DNA of 64,000 nt, taken from Chitinophagaceae bacterium (GTDB taxonomy: Bacteria; Bacteroidota; Bacteroidia; Chitinophagales; Chitinophagaceae). The position numbers were made by a program, and so were the translations under genes. The notes under the pieces were generated by a model that was given only the letters and a program-made list of their open reading frames with translations, made no database searches and was not told where the DNA came from. The stretch's first letter is position 1; every line of letters begins with the position of its first letter. The DNA lies in contig SAIX01000012.1 of NCBI GenBank assembly GCA_004028765.1, positions 1-64,000 of the forward strand. The letters run 5' to 3'. Below, in pieces: positions 14,607-30,039 of the stretch.

Positions 14607-14996
14607 ATGCCGATCCTCTATAAAATATTCCTGTTCCTGCTTATAAAAAGTGGTGCAGTTATGTTGGGGAAAGGTAATCAAGAGCCTTCGGCATACAGTA
14701 ACAGCACTTCGGTTCAAAACACAATGATGTCATTCAAACCGATATTATCCTTGCAGGGGGATATCCAATTTCTCGAAGAAGCCATAACCATCTGCCAAGA
14801 ATACCTGCCTGCAGGTATTGATCGCCACTACGACCAAGGTTTGCCGGAAGCATCCAGGGCTGTCATCCAGTTTCATCAAATGGCAGATGAATGCAGGACA
14901 AAGATCAGTCACCAGTTGATCATAAGACTGGCGGGAAAGATACTGGTGGAGTGGAAGAGCCCCGGTGGTGAAAATGGTTTTCTAGGTGGACAATAA
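14607..14996 (+). CDS. Small unknown protein
   Basis: About 129 residues from the ATG at 14607, which follows the DsbD-like stop directly (the track start at 14589 overlaps that gene). It has one N-terminal hydrophobic stretch (YKIFLFLLIKSGAVML), then a soluble helical part (EEAITICQEYLPAG, ASRAVIQFHQMADECRTK). I do not recognise the family. It lies between the DsbD-like gene and an AraC-type regulator and is probably in the same transcript. Confidence 0.45.
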   Translation: MPILYKIFLFLLIKSGAVMLGKGNQEPSAYSNSTSVQNTMMSFKPILSLQGDIQFLEEAITICQEYLPAGIDRHYDQGLPEASRAVIQFHQMADECRTKISHQLIIRLAGKILVEWKSPGGENGFLGGQ

Positions 14997-15003
14997 TAAT
15001 AGT

Positions 15004-15411
15004 ATGCCATCGACAAATTCAACCATATCATTAGCCCATTATCGCCTGGCGGCAGAAGTTGCAGAGTATATCCGCGAACATGCCTGTGAGCGGGAGTTAC
15101 TATCCATTCCCCGGTTGGCCCAAAGATTTGGTGTATGCCGTACTACACTAAAGACCTGTTTCAAATACCGACATGGGGTGAGTGTACATAAGTATGTGCT
15201 TTCGGCACGAGTCGAGAAAGCAAAAAACCTAATACTTGAGCGGCCCATGCCCATCAAAGAGATAGCCTGGGAGTTGGGGTATACAGATGTGGCTAATTTC
15301 GCCCGGGATTTTCGGAAGGTGGTGGGTATAAGTGCGGGTGAGTGGGTTAGAGGTAATAGAGTTGGGCGGATGGAGATGGAAGAAGTGGGTTGTGGCTTAC
15401 AAATATCTTAA
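15004..15411 (+). CDS. AraC-type DNA-binding regulator (stand-alone HTH domain)
   Basis: About 135 residues from the ATG at 15004 (the track uses a GTG at 14986). Nearly all of it is an AraC HTH_18 domain, with a first HTH at IPRLAQRFGVCRTTLKTCFKYRHG and a second at MPIKEIAWELGYTDVANFARDFRKVVG. No sensor domain is present. In Bacteroidota such short AraC proteins are common near mobile elements. The start lies 7 nt after the preceding stop, which suggests coupling. The target is unknown. Confidence 0.8.
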   Translation: MPSTNSTISLAHYRLAAEVAEYIREHACERELLSIPRLAQRFGVCRTTLKTCFKYRHGVSVHKYVLSARVEKAKNLILERPMPIKEIAWELGYTDVANFARDFRKVVGISAGEWVRGNRVGRMEMEEVGCGLQIS

Positions 15412-15503
15412 TTTACTTATTTTCAGTTAATTATAAATTAGTTAGTATTGCAAATAATAATATTTTTACAAATATTATTTACAAATTAATTTGAAAATAT
15501 AAT

Positions 15504-15511
15504 TACATTTG
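15504..15511 (+). promoter_or_regulatory. Bacteroidota -7 promoter element upstream of the Abi_2-associated RNA
   Basis: TACATTTG matches the TAnnTTTG consensus exactly. No good -33 TTTG is present at 19-21 bp. It predicts a transcript start near 15518, just before the structured RNA at 15523. Confidence 0.5.
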
Positions 15512-15517
15512 TGCTAA

Positions 15518-15581
15518 CAACACCTGTCAAGCCTCTTGGTCCTTTACCGGGCTAAAGCGCAACTCTGACGGGTTTTTTTTT
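15518..15581 (+). ncRNA. Candidate structured RNA upstream of the Abi_2 gene
   Basis: A roughly 60-nt predicted transcript. Its ends pair (CCTGTCA at 15523-15529 with TGACGGG at 15566-15572, seven pairs including one G-U), followed by a run of nine T residues (15573-15581), the signature of intrinsic termination. Inside, AGCC (15530-15533) can pair with GGCT. It sits directly in front of an Abi_2 gene. A conserved 'Abi-F' RNA motif next to such genes has been described, as I recall; whether this RNA belongs to it needs a covariance search. It may be an RNA antitoxin or guard. Confidence 0.5.
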
Positions 15582-16593
15582 GCCCCCCACCGAAGGATTT
15601 TGGCAATATAAAACCATAACTGCTATCACTGATAAAATTCCATACAAACATCCGCCATTGCCTGTGCCCGATCAGATCGATCTATTACTAGGCAAAGGCT
15701 TGGTTATCGGTGACCGATCGCTGGCGGAAACGTTTCTTAACCACGTCAGTTATTTCCGGTTTAAAGAATATTCCTGGACTTTCAAAGATTATAAAGAAGC
15801 TGATGGCAATTACCATAAAGGGACTACGTTCGAGCAGGTAAGGGACCTGTATTACTTTGACAGGCGGTTGAAGCTACTCCTGTTTGAAGCAATAGAAAGT
15901 ATTGAGATCGCTGTAAAAACACAACTATCCAATATCATGTCGTTACGTCACGGGATACATTGGTACCTTGACGATGCGCACTTTTTTTCAGAGGCAGAGA
16001 AAAAGAAAATAAGAGAACGTGAAGGGGAAGATTTTAAATGGTTCGATCACAGCGCATTTTTGGCAGACCTGGAAGAAGAACTTGAAGATCCAGAGGAGAT
16101 TTCGCTAAAATATTATAAGAAATCCTACGAGCCAAAGCATCCACCGTCCTGGATGGTGATGGAAATGATCTCGTTTGGAACCTTGTCAAAAATGATTGCA
16201 AACCTGCAACCTTCGGATGAAAAAACTGCGATCTGTGAAAGCTTTCGTTTAACTAAACTGCAATTGGTTTCATGGTTACACTGTTTTGCATTTTTAAGGA
16301 ACCGCTGCGCACACCACGCCAGGCTAGTACATAATAATGTTCGATTTGCTCCGGCTATGCCTCGAAAAGCCAGCCGGATTTTTCTTACCGAACATGCCGA
16401 GGTGGAAGACAATAGTATATATGCCGCATGCGCTTGTATGCAGTTTATGCTACAAACCTGCAACCCACAGGCTTGCTTTGGGGCTAATTTAAAGGCATTA
16501 TTTGACCAGTTTCCTACTGTCAGGGCGTCAGATCTCGGGTTTACGGCGAATTGGCGAAAAGAGGCCCTGTGGAGAGGAAGTGAAGGCCTGTAA
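15580..16593 (+). CDS. Abi_2 (AbiD/AbiF-like) abortive-infection HEPN protein
   Basis: A 337-residue protein of the Abi_2 family. The family opening is present (QIDLLLGKGLVIGDRSLAE, then NHVSYFRFKEY), followed by DRRLKLLLFEAIESIEIAVKT and WMVMEMISFGTLSKMI. The catalytic-type HEPN motif is FLRNRCAHHARLVHN (R-N-x3-H). Members act as phage-triggered RNases. The track start is a TTG at 15580 inside the T-run of the preceding RNA, and no upstream ATG exists. The true start may be this TTG or another non-ATG codon before the PDQIDLLL segment. Expression probably depends on read-through of the RNA terminator, as in type III toxin-antitoxin loci. Confidence 0.82.
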   Translation: MPPTEGFWQYKTITAITDKIPYKHPPLPVPDQIDLLLGKGLVIGDRSLAETFLNHVSYFRFKEYSWTFKDYKEADGNYHKGTTFEQVRDLYYFDRRLKLLLFEAIESIEIAVKTQLSNIMSLRHGIHWYLDDAHFFSEAEKKKIREREGEDFKWFDHSAFLADLEEELEDPEEISLKYYKKSYEPKHPPSWMVMEMISFGTLSKMIANLQPSDEKTAICESFRLTKLQLVSWLHCFAFLRNRCAHHARLVHNNVRFAPAMPRKASRIFLTEHAEVEDNSIYAACACMQFMLQTCNPQACFGANLKALFDQFPTVRASDLGFTANWRKEALWRGSEGL

Positions 16594-20713: not shown

Positions 20714-21697
20714 ATGGCCAGCGAAAGCGAAGACTACTTAGCTTATGTCAAATACGAAGGTGCTTCCGTAGAAGAGGGATACCTGGATGCGCGCAAGTCT
20801 GCCGATGCACTCATCGGTATTGATGAGGTTATCCGCTATTTTCTCTACCAAAGTGACAACAGTTTTCAGCAAATCAGTTTTGAAATTCCTGTCAGGGTTC
20901 GTAAGGGCAGCTGGGAGACGCTTATTCCACATACACTGGCAGATTGGTTGCTGACGGCTATAGGTACGGCTGCCACAGCCTATGCTGGAACGGCTTTAAA
21001 GAAGATTGCTGAGAATGATTTTAAAGATGTATCTACTAAGGACATCGTCAAAAAGGCGATCAAATCCATCAAATGGGTTATACGAATTGCCAAACATGTA
21101 CACTCACTTGTTCAAAAACAGTTTATTGAAGTGGATTTTAAACAAGAAGGAGGGCAGGTTTTGGTCGGAATTAAGAACACAGAAGGGGAGGTTTTATATG
21201 TTCCACAAGAATATCTAGAGTTGTACAAAAATTGCCCTGATAAACTGTTTTCAAAACTTACCCGAAATGTGAATCCCGAAAGAAAACTGGAAATAGGATT
21301 TAACCCATCTGAGCCAGTGGATAAGGATGATACAAAGGAGCCCGTTGATATTACCATGGCCGATAAATTCATTTTTACAAAAGAAGACGAGGATGATGAA
21401 GTATTATTTCCAGAACTGGTGCATAACCAGTATGTTGAACTCGATGGACACGTGTCGCGCGGAAATGAAAAAACCAACACGATAGGTTTTGAATACAAGG
21501 GGCATATCCTGACCTGTATTCCCACACAGGGAAATATCAAAATGTATAAAACCCAAATCTTTACCAACTGTGTCTTGAAGGGGTATGTTGATCGAATGGA
21601 TGAGCATGGTCGGGCAATCGAAAAGCGACCCAGGATTAAGTTTATTGATCTTGTTTCAGTAACACCGCCAGGTGAACAGATAAATATGTTTTCGTAA
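20714..21697 (+). CDS. Unknown protein, first gene of a nuclease cluster
   Basis: A 327-residue protein. The N-terminal segment (LAYVKYEGASVEEGYLDARKSADALIGIDEVIRYFL) and VRVRKGSWETLIPH are family-like features that I associate with unnamed proteins found in prophage and defence islands. A possible membrane-associated helix (LLTAIGTAATAYAGTAL) lies near residue 80. The C-terminal half is beta-rich. It precedes the TM0106-type nuclease by 17 nt and is presumably co-transcribed with it. No function can be assigned from sequence. Confidence 0.5.
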   Translation: MASESEDYLAYVKYEGASVEEGYLDARKSADALIGIDEVIRYFLYQSDNSFQQISFEIPVRVRKGSWETLIPHTLADWLLTAIGTAATAYAGTALKKIAENDFKDVSTKDIVKKAIKSIKWVIRIAKHVHSLVQKQFIEVDFKQEGGQVLVGIKNTEGEVLYVPQEYLELYKNCPDKLFSKLTRNVNPERKLEIGFNPSEPVDKDDTKEPVDITMADKFIFTKEDEDDEVLFPELVHNQYVELDGHVSRGNEKTNTIGFEYKGHILTCIPTQGNIKMYKTQIFTNCVLKGYVDRMDEHGRAIEKRPRIKFIDLVSVTPPGEQINMFS

Positions 21698-21714
21698 ATA
21701 TTTAAAGCGTTATT

Positions 21715-23202
21715 ATGACTATTACTTCTTCGCAGCTCTATAATTATTATCAATGCCCGCATAAAGTATGGATGGATGAGAACGGACCGAAAGATCAGGA
21801 GATTCAGGAGACCAATCCTTTCGTGCAACTGCTATGGGATAAAGGTGTGCAGCATGAAGCAAACATTATTAAGGGTATTGGAGCTTACCTGGACCTCAGC
21901 CAGGGATCTCGTGAGACAAGAGTTGATCAGACGAGAAAAGCATTGGATGCAAAAGTGCCCTTGTTATACCAACCTGTTTTGACCAATGGTCACCTGCTTG
22001 GAATACCGGACTTGTTGGAATTACAAGCAGATGGTCAGTATTTGCCGATCGATATTAAATCAGGACAGGGATTTGAAGGACAAGCTGAGGAAGGGGATCA
22101 AAAACAAAAAAAGCATTATGCACTTCAACTGTGCTTATATGTCGAGATACTTCAATCAATGGGGTATTGTAATACGAGGGTGGGTTTTATTATCGATGGA
22201 GATGGGAATAGGGTTGCCTATGATCTGAATCTTGCATTGGGTCTTAAAAACCCGCAAACCTATTGGGCGTATTACGAGCAAATGCTGCAGGAAGTGCGAA
22301 ATATTCTTTCCGGTAAGGAATCAAACGATCCTGCCTTGAGCGGGGTATGTAAACTATGCAGTTGGTACTATGTCTGTAAACAATGGTGTGCTGATAATGA
22401 TGATCCAACACAAGTGTTTTACCTGGGCAGGAGCGTTCGTGATAAACTAAAGGCGGAAGCAGGCATTCATACTGTTGCAGATGTTGCGGCATTGGATGTA
22501 CAAGCATTGCTGGCACAGAAAAAGAAAGACAAAACTTTTTTAAAGGGCTTGGCTGAAGGCTCGCTAACCAGCGCTAAGCGGAGAGCTGAGCTTTTCCGGT
22601 CGAAAGGGGCACCGGTGGCGTATGAAAAAATAAATCTTCCCAAAGTTCAATACGAATTGTTTTTTGATATTGAAGACGATCCGACACAGGATTTTGTTTA
22701 CCTGCATGGTATTTATGTTCGGGAGAACGGCAAAGAATACTTTAAGGATTTCACCGCTACACAGATCAGTACTGCAGCAGAAGAAAAAGCATGGGCGGAT
22801 TTCTGGCAATATATCTGGTCGTTACCGAAAGATGATTTTGCCGTGTATTATTATTCATCTCATGAAAAAGCAACCTATGGACGGTTGCAAAAAAAATATC
22901 CCGTTGTTATCAGTGAAGAACAGCTTGCTGCTTTTTTTGATCATCCCTATGTCATTGACCTTTATACCAATATTGTTTTAAAACTGACGGACTGGCCACT
23001 TAGCAGTTATTCGATTAAAGAGCTGGCCACGTACCTGGGTTTTAAATGGCGTGATGCAACGCCATCGGGTGCTTTATCCATTCAATGGTTTAATGATTAT
23101 ATACAAAAGAATGATCCCGCCATATTAAAACGTATCCTGGAATACAATGAGGATGATTGTATTGCAACCATGGTGGTGAAGGATAAATTGGCCAGCATGT
23201 GA
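21715..23202 (+). CDS. TM0106-family RecB-like nuclease with RNase H-like domain
   Basis: A 495-residue protein. Part one (1-230) is a Cas4/RecB-like PD-(D/E)XK nuclease: an early Cys (YQCPHKVW), GIPDLLE and LPIDIKSGQ as catalytic motifs, and a late CKLCSWYYVCKQWC cluster that could complete an iron-sulfur site. A short helix-hairpin-helix-like segment follows (IHTVADVAALDVQAL). Part two is a DEDD/YprB-type exonuclease domain with FFDIEDDP, VYYYSSHEKAT, VIDLYTNIV and EYNEDDCIAT. This is the architecture of the TM0106 family, probably acting on DNA or RNA ends in repair or defence. Confidence 0.8.
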   Translation: MTITSSQLYNYYQCPHKVWMDENGPKDQEIQETNPFVQLLWDKGVQHEANIIKGIGAYLDLSQGSRETRVDQTRKALDAKVPLLYQPVLTNGHLLGIPDLLELQADGQYLPIDIKSGQGFEGQAEEGDQKQKKHYALQLCLYVEILQSMGYCNTRVGFIIDGDGNRVAYDLNLALGLKNPQTYWAYYEQMLQEVRNILSGKESNDPALSGVCKLCSWYYVCKQWCADNDDPTQVFYLGRSVRDKLKAEAGIHTVADVAALDVQALLAQKKKDKTFLKGLAEGSLTSAKRRAELFRSKGAPVAYEKINLPKVQYELFFDIEDDPTQDFVYLHGIYVRENGKEYFKDFTATQISTAAEEKAWADFWQYIWSLPKDDFAVYYYSSHEKATYGRLQKKYPVVISEEQLAAFFDHPYVIDLYTNIVLKLTDWPLSSYSIKELATYLGFKWRDATPSGALSIQWFNDYIQKNDPAILKRILEYNEDDCIATMVVKDKLASM

Positions 23203-23295
23203 ATGGATCAGTTGTTGATCCATTCGGATGGCTTCAGTATATTTATATTCCCCCCGTTTAAGGATCATTCTTTACTGAACTAAGCTGCTTATTAC

Positions 23296-24189
23296 ATGGA
23301 ATATTATTCAACGTCACATTTTGCCAAACTGTTTGGTGTACCCGCCGCACAACTTTTTAGTGATCTGCAGCAATGGGGATGGATTGAACGATCGGGTGAT
23401 AAATGGGTGTTAACCCAACTCGGGAGACAGAAAGGCGGTGAAGCCCGATCTAATTCAAACTATGGAGAATACATTGTATGGCCGGAAGATATTTTTTTCG
23501 AGGAGGATCTTGACCGATCACAGTTCCTTAATTCCACTTCGATTGGAGATCATTTTAAGATTTCTTCCCGCCGGATGAACCTGATCCTGTCGGAGCTGGG
23601 CTGGATCGAAAAGGCGATTGCTGGTTGGGTAATCACGAAGCTGGGCAGGGAGCTTGGTGGGAGACAGCTGGAGCATGATATTTCCGGCGGGACCTATGTG
23701 CTTTGGCCGAAGGAGATTGTGAATAACCCGAACCTTCGCAATATTTTTTTCGAAACCGTACTTGAAGCAAAGGATGCAGCCCCTGTAGCAATAAAAACTG
23801 AAGCAACACCTATTGAAGCACCACTAACAGATAGTTTTCGCAATAAATTCCCGGCAACCTTCCGAACAAAAGATGGTCATATGGTTCGTTCACGCGCTGA
23901 AGTGATCATTGATAATGCACTGTACGATTACAAACTGGTTCATGCTTACGAAAGAAAAGTGCCGATCGAAGAAGATTTGTATTCAGATTTCTTCCTTCCG
24001 GCCGAAGGCGTCTACATTGAATATTGGGGTATGGAACACGATGAGAAATACCGCGAACGAAAGAAAGTGAAACTAGATCTGTATAAGAAAAATGAATTAA
24101 AGCTGATCGAACTGACTGATGAGGATCTAGCAAACTTGGACGATCATTTGCCAAGAAAACTCCTGAAGCATAATATCAAGGTGTACTAG
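23296..24189 (+). CDS. Winged-helix repeats fused to a Vsr/PD-(D/E)XK-like nuclease
   Basis: A 297-residue protein. The first 150 residues hold two related units of antirepressor-like winged-helix character, each ending in a 'W(V/A)...T(Q/K)LGR..GG' segment (WVLTQLGRQKGGEA and WVITKLGRELGGRQ). The C-terminal 120 residues look like a Vsr/DUF559-like endonuclease: RSRAEVIIDNAL, SDFFLPAEGVYIEYWG with D-x(n)-E-x-W, and a final LKLIELTDEDL. It follows the TM0106-type gene by 93 nt. Its 3' end overlaps the convergent WYL gene by 14 nt. A DNA-nicking accessory nuclease is likely. Confidence 0.6.
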   Translation: MEYYSTSHFAKLFGVPAAQLFSDLQQWGWIERSGDKWVLTQLGRQKGGEARSNSNYGEYIVWPEDIFFEEDLDRSQFLNSTSIGDHFKISSRRMNLILSELGWIEKAIAGWVITKLGRELGGRQLEHDISGGTYVLWPKEIVNNPNLRNIFFETVLEAKDAAPVAIKTEATPIEAPLTDSFRNKFPATFRTKDGHMVRSRAEVIIDNALYDYKLVHAYERKVPIEEDLYSDFFLPAEGVYIEYWGMEHDEKYRERKKVKLDLYKKNELKLIELTDEDLANLDDHLPRKLLKHNIKVY

Positions 24190-25207
24190 AAGATTGTGCA
24201 TATTGGGTAAAAGCTTTTTTGTGTCGCCCTGCTACTAATTCAGCCAGTCGTTTGGGTGTGACAACCTTCACAGTTTCACCATAGGAAAGAATCAATCTTT
24301 CAAGTTCGTAGTTGGGTATTACCTGCAGCTGGACTTCCAGCATGTTTGCATTGATCCATTTTGCTTTCTGAGAACCGTGGAGAGGTTTGGAGGCAATGTA
24401 TTTGCCGGTAATACCAAAAAACTGTAGTACAATGGATTCAGTTTTTTTGTCCATCGGTTTTGTAACCCCTATAATGTCCTCAAAATATTCCTTCCAATCA
24501 ATCTTTGTATTCTTCTTGTAGGGTTTACGTATCGGCGTGATCTGTTGTATCCGATCCAGTGGAAGATTCCAGGTATAGATTTCTTTGTCTGGGTTATAAC
24601 CAAAGAGAAACCAGCGATTATTATATTGTTTGAGGTAATAAGGATGAATAATCAGTTCGAACGGCTGTGTACTTTCAAATGGCTGGTAGCGGATCTGCAA
24701 GACTTGCTTTTGGTAAATTGCACTGTATAAAACTTCCAGGTGTTCGATCCCCACCAGGTATTCGTTGCCGTCAAAATCAATGACCGGCTGATCCTGTTTT
24801 TTGTCGGCAATGCCCTGCTGTAATTTGGGCAGCAGTTCATGCATCCATTCAAATTGTGGCATCCCTTTAAACTGGGATAAAATATCAATGGTGCTTCGAA
24901 GCTGTTCTATTTCTAGCTGGTTCAGCGGCATACTATTGATAGAGAACGAAGGATCGGCATACCGGTAATAGACTTTCTTGCCATCCCGCAATTTTTCCAG
25001 CTCTATATGCCATCCTTCCTTGCTTTCCATAAAGGAGATGTCCTCGAAGATCTGACGCCGGCTGATTCCATTGGAATCCGGGTCGAGGTCCAGCAATACT
25101 TTCTCGCAGGCCTCGATCAAGTCATCAATAAAATACATTCGCCCATGATTGCGGAAGCAATTGTCCAGCACACGGTAGCGAATAAGGGCGTTTTTATTGG
25201 TAGGCAT
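24176..25207 (-). CDS. WYL-domain transcriptional regulator
   Basis: About 343 residues. The track starts at a TTG (25213); the ATG at 25207 gives the usual Bacteroidota opening MPTNKNALIRYRVLD. An N-terminal winged helix (ISRRQIFEDISFME) is followed by a WYL-type ligand-binding domain (IRYQPF, NNRWFLFGYN, PLDRI) and a C-terminal WCX-type extension (YELERLILSYGETVKVV). WYL regulators such as CapW and BrxR keep defence loci silent until damage or infection. This one is divergent from the retron, with a 19-bp palindrome between the genes, so it probably controls the retron and itself. Confidence 0.85.
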   Translation of the reverse strand: MPTNKNALIRYRVLDNCFRNHGRMYFIDDLIEACEKVLLDLDPDSNGISRRQIFEDISFMESKEGWHIELEKLRDGKKVYYRYADPSFSINSMPLNQLEIEQLRSTIDILSQFKGMPQFEWMHELLPKLQQGIADKKQDQPVIDFDGNEYLVGIEHLEVLYSAIYQKQVLQIRYQPFESTQPFELIIHPYYLKQYNNRWFLFGYNPDKEIYTWNLPLDRIQQITPIRKPYKKNTKIDWKEYFEDIIGVTKPMDKKTESIVLQFFGITGKYIASKPLHGSQKAKWINANMLEVQLQVIPNYELERLILSYGETVKVVTPKRLAELVAGRHKKAFTQYAQSSSTP

Positions 25208-25226
25208 ACCCAAAATTATGTATTAT

Positions 25227-25479: not shown

Positions 25480-27534
25480 ATGCCGCCAGAGGACAAACAT
25501 ATCAAGTATATCCGCCAATCGTTTGCGAAGCTGCAAACCAAGGAGGATTTGCTGGATCTGCTTAATTATGCGAAGGATATAGTATATAAGGGTAAATCGA
25601 TCCCTTTTAGTCTGAGCCAACTTACCTGGTTTTCTAATCCGACGATCAACAAACGCAGGTATATCCGCTTTGAAGTATCGAAGAAAAGAAAAGGAGAAGT
25701 GCGTGTTATCCATGCACCTCGAAAAGGGCTAAAAGCTATCCAGAAATCTCTGGCCTATATACTGCAATCTGTGTTTGAGCCCGGTAAAGCAGCCACCGGT
25801 TTTGTATGGAATAAATCTGTAGTGGATAATGCGAGGGTACATGCTGGTAATTGGTATGTCTACAATCTCGATCTAAGAGATTTTTTTTCGAGCGTTGATC
25901 AGGCCAGGGTATGGAAATGTTTGCAGCTTCCACCTTTTAACATGCCCATCCAGGTGGCCAATATTGTGGCAGCACTATGTTGTACAAAAATGCAGGTAGA
26001 ACGAATGGATGATAAGGGAGAGTGGCAGAATGAGAAACGTAATGTATTACCACAAGGCGCGCCTACTTCGCCGGTTCTTTCCAATGTCGTGTGTCAGAAG
26101 TTGGATTACCTGCTCGCAGCAGTAGCTAAAAAGTATGGTGCTAAATACAGCCGATACGCTGATGATATCACATTCAGTTCCCTGCATAGTATTTACCAGC
26201 CGGATGGTGATTTTTTAAAAGAAGTTGCAAGAATCATTACGCAACAGCGCTTTCAAATCAAGGAAAGCAAAACGCGTCTCCAGAAGCAAGGATATCGACA
26301 GGAAGTAACCGGCCTTGTTGTCAATGAAAAACCGAACGTTTCCAAACGTTTTATTAAGGGGCTTCGCATGTGGTTGTATTACTGGGAATGTTATGGTTAT
26401 GCAAAGACACTCGAATATTTTAAGGAATATTATTCTGCAGACCGACCTCAAAACAAGATTCCTAACATGATTGACGTTATCCACGGCCGACTCGATTTTT
26501 TATCGATGGTGCGTGGTAAAGCAGATCCGTTATATCTGAAGTTAAAAAAGAGGTTCGATACGTTACTCCCTCCGACCGCAATTCAGAATCGTGAGATAGA
26601 AAAAGTCGGTTATCCTGAAATGGCCAATATCCGGCCACGGGAAACGATGGAGTTTCTGAAGCATTTTAAGTATGATGATGATTATCCGTTCAAACACCTA
26701 GTACATCAACCGATCGATCCAGAAAAATTCGATTTTTATGAGTTGTTGAAAGACGCTAAAAAAGAATTTATAAGAATATCGCGCACCTATGACAACAGGC
26801 TCGAACTTCCTAAAACTTTATACGAAGCGGTCAATGAGTTATTTCAGGTGCTAGAAACCAAGGGGCTTAAATACTTTAATGATAAGAAACTCCACCCGAT
26901 TCATGAACGGGAAACGGGTCGTATCATACAAAAATTCAAAAGGAACTACCGCTTTGGTAACGAGAAAAGTGAAACGACATCTTTAACCACTGTACTGGTA
27001 AGCGCCGCTGAAAACAGGAGATTTGTAGCTCATGAAGAGGGTGTCACATATAGTTTTAGTGTAGTGGATACTTCCGGGATCTTTCGTAAAGAACAATTAG
27101 TGTTTTTGCCGGATGAAAAACGCTTTAAAATAAAAGCGAATTTTTTTACCTGGGTGCCTAATGTAATCATTGCCTTCGGTGTTATGTTTGAAAATATCCT
27201 TAAGCATAGCAATGTGAACGGTGAGCGGCCCTTTGATCCCGCAAAAAAACAGATCCTGATCGATCTGAACAGACAGAAGCAAAAGGATTGTACTTCGATC
27301 ACCCTTTCTTTACTTGACAAAGAATCTCTGTGTAGCGCAAATGTTGATAGCATGTTGCGGAATCTGCGCCGCGAATTCCTGTCCGTATTAAAAGGGGTAT
27401 GTGATTTCAAGGTACAGTTTACAGATGAGGCAGGCCAGAGCTATGAAACCAGGGTCCTGCCATATGCTGAGGCTACTGAGAAAATTGATACAAATCCTGG
27501 TGGATTTAAATATGTATTTACATTTTACGATTAA
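25480..27534 (+). CDS. Retron reverse transcriptase with a long C-terminal, ATPase-like extension
   Basis: A 684-residue protein. Residues 1-360 are a retron-type reverse transcriptase: NARVH at 117-121 (the retron NAxxH motif), DLRDFFSSVD, LPQGAPTSPVLSN, YSRYADDITFSS (YADD at 226-229) and VTGLVVN (276-282, the VTG motif). Most retron enzymes end near residue 320-350. Here about 320 more residues follow. Their last 180 (FENILKHS at 570-577, SITLSLLDKES, then a closing GGFKYVFTF strand) recall the N-box and end of a histidine-kinase ATPase fold, but without clear glycine-rich boxes. The next gene starts 2 nt downstream. The RT call is firm; the ATPase call is tentative. Confidence 0.88.
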   Translation: MPPEDKHIKYIRQSFAKLQTKEDLLDLLNYAKDIVYKGKSIPFSLSQLTWFSNPTINKRRYIRFEVSKKRKGEVRVIHAPRKGLKAIQKSLAYILQSVFEPGKAATGFVWNKSVVDNARVHAGNWYVYNLDLRDFFSSVDQARVWKCLQLPPFNMPIQVANIVAALCCTKMQVERMDDKGEWQNEKRNVLPQGAPTSPVLSNVVCQKLDYLLAAVAKKYGAKYSRYADDITFSSLHSIYQPDGDFLKEVARIITQQRFQIKESKTRLQKQGYRQEVTGLVVNEKPNVSKRFIKGLRMWLYYWECYGYAKTLEYFKEYYSADRPQNKIPNMIDVIHGRLDFLSMVRGKADPLYLKLKKRFDTLLPPTAIQNREIEKVGYPEMANIRPRETMEFLKHFKYDDDYPFKHLVHQPIDPEKFDFYELLKDAKKEFIRISRTYDNRLELPKTLYEAVNELFQVLETKGLKYFNDKKLHPIHERETGRIIQKFKRNYRFGNEKSETTSLTTVLVSAAENRRFVAHEEGVTYSFSVVDTSGIFRKEQLVFLPDEKRFKIKANFFTWVPNVIIAFGVMFENILKHSNVNGERPFDPAKKQILIDLNRQKQKDCTSITLSLLDKESLCSANVDSMLRNLRREFLSVLKGVCDFKVQFTDEAGQSYETRVLPYAEATEKIDTNPGGFKYVFTFYD

Positions 27535-27536
27535 AT

Positions 27537-28130
27537 ATGAATAAGCTATTAGTAATCGATAATAGATTAGCGGAATGGGTGCATGACAAATACGATAAGG
27601 TAGAATTTGCTCGGTTTCCTGATGATTATTTTGATTGGGATGAGGAAGGCAACTACTGCCGTCCGCGTTTCGAAAAAAAGGAATTCGATTTTGTAATGAT
27701 GCACCATAGCCAGCTCAGCCCTAAACCGCTGCCTTCGAATTTTACCGAGCTGCTTTCTCTTGAGTTAGAAAACAAATTGATTTTTTTTAGCGGCGGAATC
27801 ACTAAAGAAGAACTGACGCTTGAGAATCCTGAGCTTCCATATAGTATTGCACTCAGAGATTCCATTGAACGTGGGTTTAGAAATTTTGCGCGTAAATCGA
27901 TTCGCGCCAACCAGTGGCTGATCGGCCTTTTTTTTGAGTCCTATATCCCATCGCTAATCCGATCCATTCAGGAAATGATGGATCGAGGAATAGATGTGTC
28001 GGTGGTCAAACAATCATCCCCTTTAAATGAACTACTACTCTTAAAGAATGTATTTGCTGGAACAGATCTATATGAAAAAATTATGCGGTTGAATGATCGC
28101 AATCTGATGGAAGAGCTCAAAAAACTTTAA
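27537..28130 (+). CDS. Pseudo-receiver-like protein of the retron operon
   Basis: A 197-residue protein placed 2 nt after the reverse transcriptase and 1 nt before the next gene. Its first 110 residues read like a degenerate response-regulator receiver: LLVIDNRLAEW (strand 1), FDFVMMHHSQL in place of strand 3 with its phospho-Asp, and NKLIFFSGGI as strand 4. The usual phosphorylated Asp appears to be replaced. The C-terminal half is helical. No family is recognised. I infer a regulatory or bridging partner between the ATPase-like extension of the RT and the receiver protein encoded downstream. Confidence 0.5.
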   Translation: MNKLLVIDNRLAEWVHDKYDKVEFARFPDDYFDWDEEGNYCRPRFEKKEFDFVMMHHSQLSPKPLPSNFTELLSLELENKLIFFSGGITKEELTLENPELPYSIALRDSIERGFRNFARKSIRANQWLIGLFFESYIPSLIRSIQEMMDRGIDVSVVKQSSPLNELLLLKNVFAGTDLYEKIMRLNDRNLMEELKKL

Positions 28131-28131
28131 C

Positions 28132-30039
28132 ATGCAGAGGATTATATTAACGGAACAGCCAGAAAAATATACTGTTGGATTTGACAATGTTGACATTGTT
28201 GATGTGGCGCCGTTGGTAGGAGAAGTTCCGGCCAATTGGAAGCTCTATGGACAGGAGTTTGGACCCTATATTATTTGCGAAAGCCTGCAGAGGGTCGATT
28301 CATTTGTAGCTATTGATTTTGGCATTACCTGCGTCAATCAATACTTACTGGCGCACCATGTGCTTTCGACGTTAAAAGATCCTGTCGTTGTTTTAGTAGC
28401 AGATGAAAATATTCCTAATCTTCAGTTAGCGAAAGATTTTGGGTTGTTGCGTAACGAAGGAATTGCGGTTATTCGGATTGAACAACTAAGCGAACTTTTC
28501 ACGGCACAGGAATTGCTGGAAAAATATGTTGAGCAATTTCACGATACATTTGATCCGAATCGGTATTTCAAAGAATCACCAGCTTTTTTCAAAATGGATC
28601 GTCACCAAATGATCAATGAGTGGGGAGCCATCAAATTGTTACTCAACCATGGACTTACGCTGCAGCAAATAGAAGCAGCTTATCCATTGCCCAAAACTGT
28701 TTTTTTTAAACAGAAATTGGCAAGTTTGAATATCGGAGAAACGTCGGTACTTTCTTTGAGCAGTTATCCGGAACTAAGTAAGCTGCAACAAGCAAAGGGT
28801 AATTTTTTATCAGCAGCAGCAGCGGTTCGTAAAATTTTGCTTATCGATGACAATGCGGATAAGGGGTGGCAATTTGCGTTACAACAGTTGTTCTCTTCTG
28901 CGCAAATAGACGTTTGCGCTTGCTACCAGGATGCTTGTGCTATTACGAATTTCGCGCAGTATGATCTTATTTTCCTTGATCTGCGATTGCCGGATGTTTT
29001 TGGCGGATCTTATCCTGATATTGAAAATGGTAAAAGTTTAATACGGGACATAAAAGCTAAACCCAATGCACGTTATATTCCTCTTATTGTGTTTACTGCG
29101 TCTCAGCAGGCAAGGACTATGCATGAAGTTCTTAATGGTGGTGCCGATGCTATGTATGTCAAAGAAGCACCCGATTGGGATTCGCAGCAATCTGTTCAGA
29201 ATTATCATGAATTCCTGGACATGCTTCAGTTGCAGATAAAAAAAGGAGCCGAATTAAAAATCTATTGGCAGGCAATCGTGCAAATTAAAAGCAACTTTTT
29301 ATCCCAGATCGCTAATCAACCTGGATTTGCATTTGAAGATCGGATTGAAGAAAGGTTAGAGATGTTTTACGGCTTGCTTAAAAAGAAATATGAGGAACTG
29401 GAGTATAACAAAACTATGTTTCATTTTTCTGCAGATATACTTGCATTTATCACGCTATGGAGTATCCTGAACGATATTCAGGAGGCGTATTTTGAAAAAG
29501 GACTTGGGGAGTCTTTTACGAAAGTGAAAAATTTTTCTACTACTCCTCCAAGCTATACCCCGGTACCTTTGGATAATTGGCGTATCAAGGGGCAAACGCC
29601 AGACAAATATTTCGTAGTCGAAAAGCCTATCATTGAGGAGAACATTACTGTGACTGGCAGCCGTTCAAGACCTGGCCTAGATTATATCAGGAGAGATATT
29701 TATTCGGATTTCCAAATCAACAGGACTTCTCCTTACTTCGGATTTGATCCTGCCGGATTTCAATTTCGAAAAGTAGATTACCGCACGAAATTGTTCGTGC
29801 AAATTGGGTTTCTTTTGATGGCCAAAAATGAGCTCATAGGCACCACTAAACAGGCAGGATATTTGCAGACACTACGCGATGCCAATGAGCAACGAAATAA
29901 GCTATACCTGACGCATGGGGAAGATGGTAGTAATTTTTACGCGGTAAAAGAAAAGGATAAGCATTTTTCGTCTGCAATCACGCTTGATTTGTTCAAGTTG
30001 GTAGCTTTTCTGCTAACCGGAAACGATACTATTATATGA
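28132..30039 (+). CDS. Receiver-domain protein with C-terminal HEPN-like motif, predicted retron effector
   Basis: A 635-residue protein. Residues about 233-347 form a complete receiver domain: KILLIDDN (acidic pair 239-240), DLIFLDLRLPD (phospho-Asp 283), IVFTAS (Thr322) and MYVKEAPD (Lys344). Residues 1-220 are an unassigned alpha/beta region. After a helical stretch (370-460), the C-terminus contains LRDANEQRNKLYLTHG, an R-N-x5-H motif (Arg588 to His595) like that of HEPN RNases. I infer phosphorylation-controlled RNA cleavage, with the retron acting as sensor. It is the last gene of the operon. No terminator with a T-run is evident after it. Confidence 0.6.
   Translation: MQRIILTEQPEKYTVGFDNVDIVDVAPLVGEVPANWKLYGQEFGPYIICESLQRVDSFVAIDFGITCVNQYLLAHHVLSTLKDPVVVLVADENIPNLQLAKDFGLLRNEGIAVIRIEQLSELFTAQELLEKYVEQFHDTFDPNRYFKESPAFFKMDRHQMINEWGAIKLLLNHGLTLQQIEAAYPLPKTVFFKQKLASLNIGETSVLSLSSYPELSKLQQAKGNFLSAAAAVRKILLIDDNADKGWQFALQQLFSSAQIDVCACYQDACAITNFAQYDLIFLDLRLPDVFGGSYPDIENGKSLIRDIKAKPNARYIPLIVFTASQQARTMHEVLNGGADAMYVKEAPDWDSQQSVQNYHEFLDMLQLQIKKGAELKIYWQAIVQIKSNFLSQIANQPGFAFEDRIEERLEMFYGLLKKKYEELEYNKTMFHFSADILAFITLWSILNDIQEAYFEKGLGESFTKVKNFSTTPPSYTPVPLDNWRIKGQTPDKYFVVEKPIIEENITVTGSRSRPGLDYIRRDIYSDFQINRTSPYFGFDPAGFQFRKVDYRTKLFVQIGFLLMAKNELIGTTKQAGYLQTLRDANEQRNKLYLTHGEDGSNFYAVKEKDKHFSSAITLDLFKLVAFLLTGNDTII

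Follow-up and report, generated by a model that had tools for sequence, protein, structure and literature searches.

Directly in front of an Abi_2 gene on contig SAIX01000012.1 of a Chitinophagaceae bacterium (assembly GCA_004028765.1) lies a short hairpin that ends in a run of T residues. The question is whether this element is an antitoxin RNA acting on the protein encoded behind it, a leader that controls the gene in cis or just a terminator. In the present study, it was addressed in the first 64,000 nucleotides of the contig, referred to below as the window.

Layout of the locus and its surroundings

The initial annotation described a structured RNA with a 7-bp closing stem, nine T residues and then the Abi_2 reading frame, and each of these elements was located in the sequence (Table 1). 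An eighth base pair of the closing stem is possible via A15522. The promoter box TAnnTTTG, which is the −7 consensus of Bacteroidota, precedes the stem by 17–19 nt in 20 of 29 loci, where chance would give about 0.007 per locus. No convincing −33 element was found upstream of the −7 box at the window RNA, so the claim of a promoter of its own is carried by the −7 box only. On the plus strand, a sigma-70 scan had no hit in the promoter region, as is expected for Bacteroidota. AT-rich inverted repeats at 15448–15505 (12 nt at 92%; an 18-nt palindrome at 83%) overlap the promoter region; they are possibly an operator, or a chance feature of AT-rich DNA.

Table 1. Coordinates of the features of the abiF locus in the window
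Feature	Position	Strand	Basis
−7 promoter box TACATTTG, Bacteroidota-type	15504..15511	+	direct reading; TAnnTTTG kept in place in 20/29 loci
abiF-type antitoxin RNA (AbiFr-like), predicted, ~65 nt	~15516..15581	+	model R2 and RF03085 matches; 5' end placed from the promoter box
closing stem, 5' arm CCUGUCA	15523..15529	+	helix covariation and fold
second short helix, G15531-C15558 and C15532-G15557, its arms enclosing a 24-nt apical region	15531..15558	+	alignment
3' internal loop (G)CAACUC, putative toxin-contacting single strand	15559..15565	+	6–7 nt in 79/80 loci; role by analogy with PMC12737573
closing stem, 3' arm UGACGGG (15566–15572), and U9 (15573–15581): intrinsic terminator made by the antitoxin itself	15566..15581	+	sequence and fold
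abiF gene, predicted Abi_2/HEPN RNase toxin	15580..16593	+	PF07751 1.4e-54; 8VZ6 2.7e-42; N-terminal alignment; start TTG 15580 or ATC 15625/ATT 15637

The region 20714–25213, about 4 kb from abiF, is a probable defence island. It contains a 327-aa ORF of unknown kind, a TM0106 RecB-like nuclease with an RNase_H_2 domain (21715–23202), a PDC-S69 candidate (23296–24189) and a WYL regulator (24176–25213, minus strand). At 25480–30039 (plus strand), a reverse transcriptase resembling PADLOC RT-Protease_XI/RT-TIR_XII (3e-98) is fused to a HisKin-conflict kinase domain (PF22561), and downstream of the fusion lie a 197-aa ORF and a response-regulator protein (PF00072); this region is a candidate for a defence system combining a reverse transcriptase with two-component-like parts.

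The AbiF protein and its start codon

The ORF matched the Abi_2 family with 185.7 bits (cut-off 25.6) and PADLOC AbiD at 2.8e-68. As was found by the phmmer search, its best relative in the PDB, full-length and about 28% identical, is 8VZ6, "PbAbiF dimer bound to ncRNA". The AlphaFold model (mean pLDDT 94) matched 8VZ6 in Foldseek with E = 4.6e-18 and TM 0.83/0.90; PbAbiF was the only significant Foldseek match, and the fold is not of the ToxN type. The HEPN motif (R-x4-H) is intact as RNRCAH, R-N-x-x-A-H is present in all 29 of 29 proteins, and R, N, A, H and H are invariant in the alignment. The genome of the window carries a single Abi_2 gene. Family match, motif and fold thus agree with the Abi_2 HEPN gene of the initial annotation, and the ORF is assigned on these grounds to the AbiF toxins of the Abi_2/AbiD/F HEPN class. 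It is probable, by analogy, that the protein is an RNA-cutting anti-phage toxin.

The absence of an ATG and a beginning in or after the T-run had also been proposed, and this description holds. Near the N-terminus, neither ATG nor GTG occurs in frame; TTG 15580 is the sole usual in-frame start ahead of the conserved region there, lying inside the T-run and overlapping the terminator, and the methionine of relatives aligns with ATC 15625 (several relatives) or ATT 15637. All three codons are candidates for the start. Given that ATG stands at this place in 76 of 80 relatives, the start in the window is unusual, and a decayed or poorly expressed gene is therefore conceivable. According to such an explanation, the RNA would still be made while the toxin goes untranslated, which would suit both the missing ATG/GTG and the occurrence of toxin-less RNA matches elsewhere (see below). 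However, the frame runs for 337 aa without stops, the catalytic residues are all intact, the predicted fold is confident, and the nearest relative (L005, 51% identical) likewise has no ATG and starts with TTG. Decay of this copy is accordingly improbable.

Structure and distribution of the RNA

An Rfam scan of the whole window at gathering thresholds returned one tRNA only. In a narrow E-value scan, RF03085 (Rfam abiF) matched 15523–15573; a match to RprA in the same scan (E = 6.2) was dismissed as a chance one. In this search with the Abi-F covariance model, as suggested by the initial annotation, all 37 positions of RF03085 are aligned, but at 20 bits the window RNA falls below the family as curated (gathering score 37). 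The two share the two-helix architecture and the conserved core; in the window RNA, the 3' internal loop is one nucleotide larger and the apical region is longer.

Because the match was below the gathering score, an independent covariance test was built. A related protein was present in 32 of 399 genomes of the same taxonomic family, the window's own genome counted, and the covariance model R2 was made from 28 relatives with an RNA spotted by eye directly upstream, the window being excluded. On the genome of the window (3.7 Mb), the top site genome-wide was 15511–15581 (33.2 bits, E = 2.6e-4). It was the single R2 match in the window, and a repeat of the motif was absent from 15400–15640.

The single-strand fold of the window RNA is better than that of nearly all shuffled sequences (z = −2.55). 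In a structure-blind MAFFT alignment, 90% of cells are paired under the two-helix structure, compared with 27–49% for slid versions; eight of ten pairs vary on both sides, and the covariation score is 0.391 versus 0.171 for shuffles and at most 0.137 for slid controls. The covariation was seen again on 80 matches, and RNAalifold independently gave the same helices. Conservation of the stem among related Abi_2 loci, on which the initial annotation had made its reading depend, was thus found, together with compensatory changes. The window RNA is among the lowest scorers of its set, partly because of the extra nucleotide and the longer apical region mentioned above. The latter usually comprises 11–14 nt; the 24 nt of the window group it with 15 of 80 loci at 22–30 nt, some of which have an extra hairpin. 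Judging from its sequence, the window RNA is assigned to the abiF-type (AbiFr) RNAs in the wider sense, i.e., a conserved two-helix structure directly upstream of abiF on the same strand.

The position of the stem and U9 terminator immediately before abiF would also be compatible with a cis-acting attenuator or riboswitch-like leader that is inactive in trans, and control of abiF by termination in cis is known from C. difficile (PMC12373285). However, a terminator would need far less conservation than is seen in the inner helix, the internal loop and the loop sequence, and the solved structure of PbAbiF has its ncRNA bound. The AbiF of C. difficile is toxic; its abiF-motif RNA RCd22, which is produced mainly as a short transcript ended at the terminator, neutralises the toxin both in cis and in trans. 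It does so by binding AbiF directly, and the effect depends on the stem (PMC12373285). A leader limited to cis action is thus quite improbable.

R2 recovered the RNA shortly ahead of the gene, in the same orientation, at 77 of 80 named AbiF loci, which come from Bacteroidota, Pseudomonadota, Acidobacteriota, Spirochaetota, Verrucomicrobiota and Actinomycetota; two of the 77 matches are weak (E 0.006 and 0.013), and at one of the three misses (L191) a similar hairpin is visible by eye. These loci were collected with an alignment query against genome contigs, whereas a single-protein query found no relatives there. In other Bacteroidia families, 23 of 26 Abi_2 genes have the RNA a short way upstream on their own strand (hand count, distinct genes). 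RF03085 at its cut-off found 3 of 29 loci in the family of the window and 2 of 20 further Bacteroidota loci, places that R2 also finds. The RNA keeps its place beside Abi_2 although the genes upstream vary from locus to locus, and in the window a promoter box separates the RNA from the AraC-type gene (14986–15411), so that, even if the hairpin lies about 110 nt downstream of this gene on the same strand, a mere AraC terminator with abiF expressed otherwise is hardly tenable.

The exact RNA core was not found in the viral contigs searched. The protein was absent from nine congeners in the family sample, and searching the DNA of 40 relatives, including 24 congeners, gave no copy of the locus; such a distribution fits a gene that is gained and lost by transfer.

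An RNA-first search of the order gave 44 matches, of which 31 adjoin an Abi_2 gene or fragment, 1 is near a remnant and 12 are neither (hand count); at least two of the 12 (L105, L106) look like chance matches. Matches with no adjoining Abi_2 gene include L058/L109, L059/L110, L060/L111, L061/L112, L062, L101 and L102, which may be stand-alone antitoxins, remnants or chance. At L109 an AbiH gene is convergent with the RNA match, at L111, from the genus of the window, a nucleotidyltransferase follows it, and one congener of the window (G396) has an RNA match and no toxin gene. At L097, two abiF-type RNAs about 0.8 kb apart (3153 and 3967, minus strand; boxes TATCTTTG and TATCTTTA) each directly precede a small non-Abi_2 ORF; the locus also contains GmrSD_N and a weak match to HEPN, and this arrangement is possibly another use of the RNA. 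At L100 (G579), AbiF and its RNA lie between hsdS and hsdR of a type I restriction operon, and a second abiF-type RNA lies directly before hsdR; the large ORF behind it was considered as a large HEPN effector, which was ruled out, as it is the HsdR subunit. Tandem motifs before Abi_2, as in RCd22 of C. difficile, occur at L076 (1269–1324 and 1341–1397) and L119 (786–847 and 961–1018).

Comparison with known systems and the proposed mechanism

In its full-length protein fold, HEPN motif and origin from Bacteroidota, the locus resembles PbAbiF-AbiFr of a Prevotellaceae bacterium (8VZ6). This complex was reportedly studied by Zilberzwige-Tal et al. (Cell 2025). In that complex each monomer carries one RNA molecule, and the AbiF of the window would do the same. 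The two proteins differ by the low identity noted above, and the window RNA has a long apical region. According to a review, the RNase is inhibited by nucleotides in a single-stranded bulge of the RNA bound to PbAbiF (PMC12737573), and by analogy this bulge would correspond to the 3' internal loop of the window RNA. The function in Bacteroidota is less obscure than the initial annotation supposed, as the solved complex itself comes from this phylum.

AbiFCd-RCd22, encoded by the phi027 prophage of Clostridioides difficile, has the same order of promoter, abiF-type RNA, terminator and abiF (PMC12373285) and a similar HEPN motif, RNQCAH. It differs in that RCd22 contains two motifs, with the terminator in a hairpin of its own, while the single motif of the window doubles as terminator, and in its prophage location, the abiF of the window lying near other defence genes. 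With ToxIN-type type III systems the locus shares an upstream RNA antitoxin, an intrinsic terminator and a toxin. Classical type III antitoxins are typically built of tandem repeats, which the window antitoxin does not have, and its toxin is a HEPN protein. The proposed type III reading therefore stands in layout and in its agreement with PMC12373285 and PMC12737573, but not in tandem repeats or toxin fold.

Since layout, RNA class and protein are the same as in C. difficile, the same mechanism is the best explanation. An AbiF toxin paired with an abiF-type antitoxin RNA that acts like a type III toxin-antitoxin is given a probability of about 0.88; to this reading the window contributes the anatomy, conservation, covariation, catalytic motif and fold. 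One promoter would give rise to a short structured RNA, the closing stem and U9 would stop most transcripts, leaving the RNA in excess, and a minority would continue into abiF, whose translation, from a non-ATG start, is probably weak. The RNA would bind and silence the AbiF HEPN RNase dimer; read-through, binding, neutralisation and toxicity are carried over here from published relatives. A fall in the RNA, for which a phage shutting off host transcription is a conceivable trigger, would free AbiF, which would cut RNA, halt growth and limit phage spread. It is very likely, by this analogy, that the small folded RNA keeps AbiF switched off.

As antitoxin and terminator are one hairpin, binding of AbiF could change termination. 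A tentative and rather doubtful extension is that AbiF binds nascent RNA and alters termination, so that free toxin senses its own antitoxin during transcription, that the rare AUC/AUU/UUG start is a second throttle, and that toxin-less abiF-type RNAs in related genomes are stand-alone antitoxins.

For C. difficile, toxicity and its neutralisation by the RNA were reported in 2025, and the Prevotellaceae complex has been solved; the locus of the window is a well-formed, ordinary member of this known kind. Its local features are a single motif with a closing stem that also serves as terminator, the long apical region and the lack of an ATG/GTG start. With a model from one family of Bacteroidota, the RNA is recovered at nearly all AbiF genes sampled, whereas about nine in ten go undetected by the current Rfam model at its cut-off. 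AbiF is the proposed ancestor of Cas13, and the range of its RNA partners therefore bears on the origin of RNA guidance.
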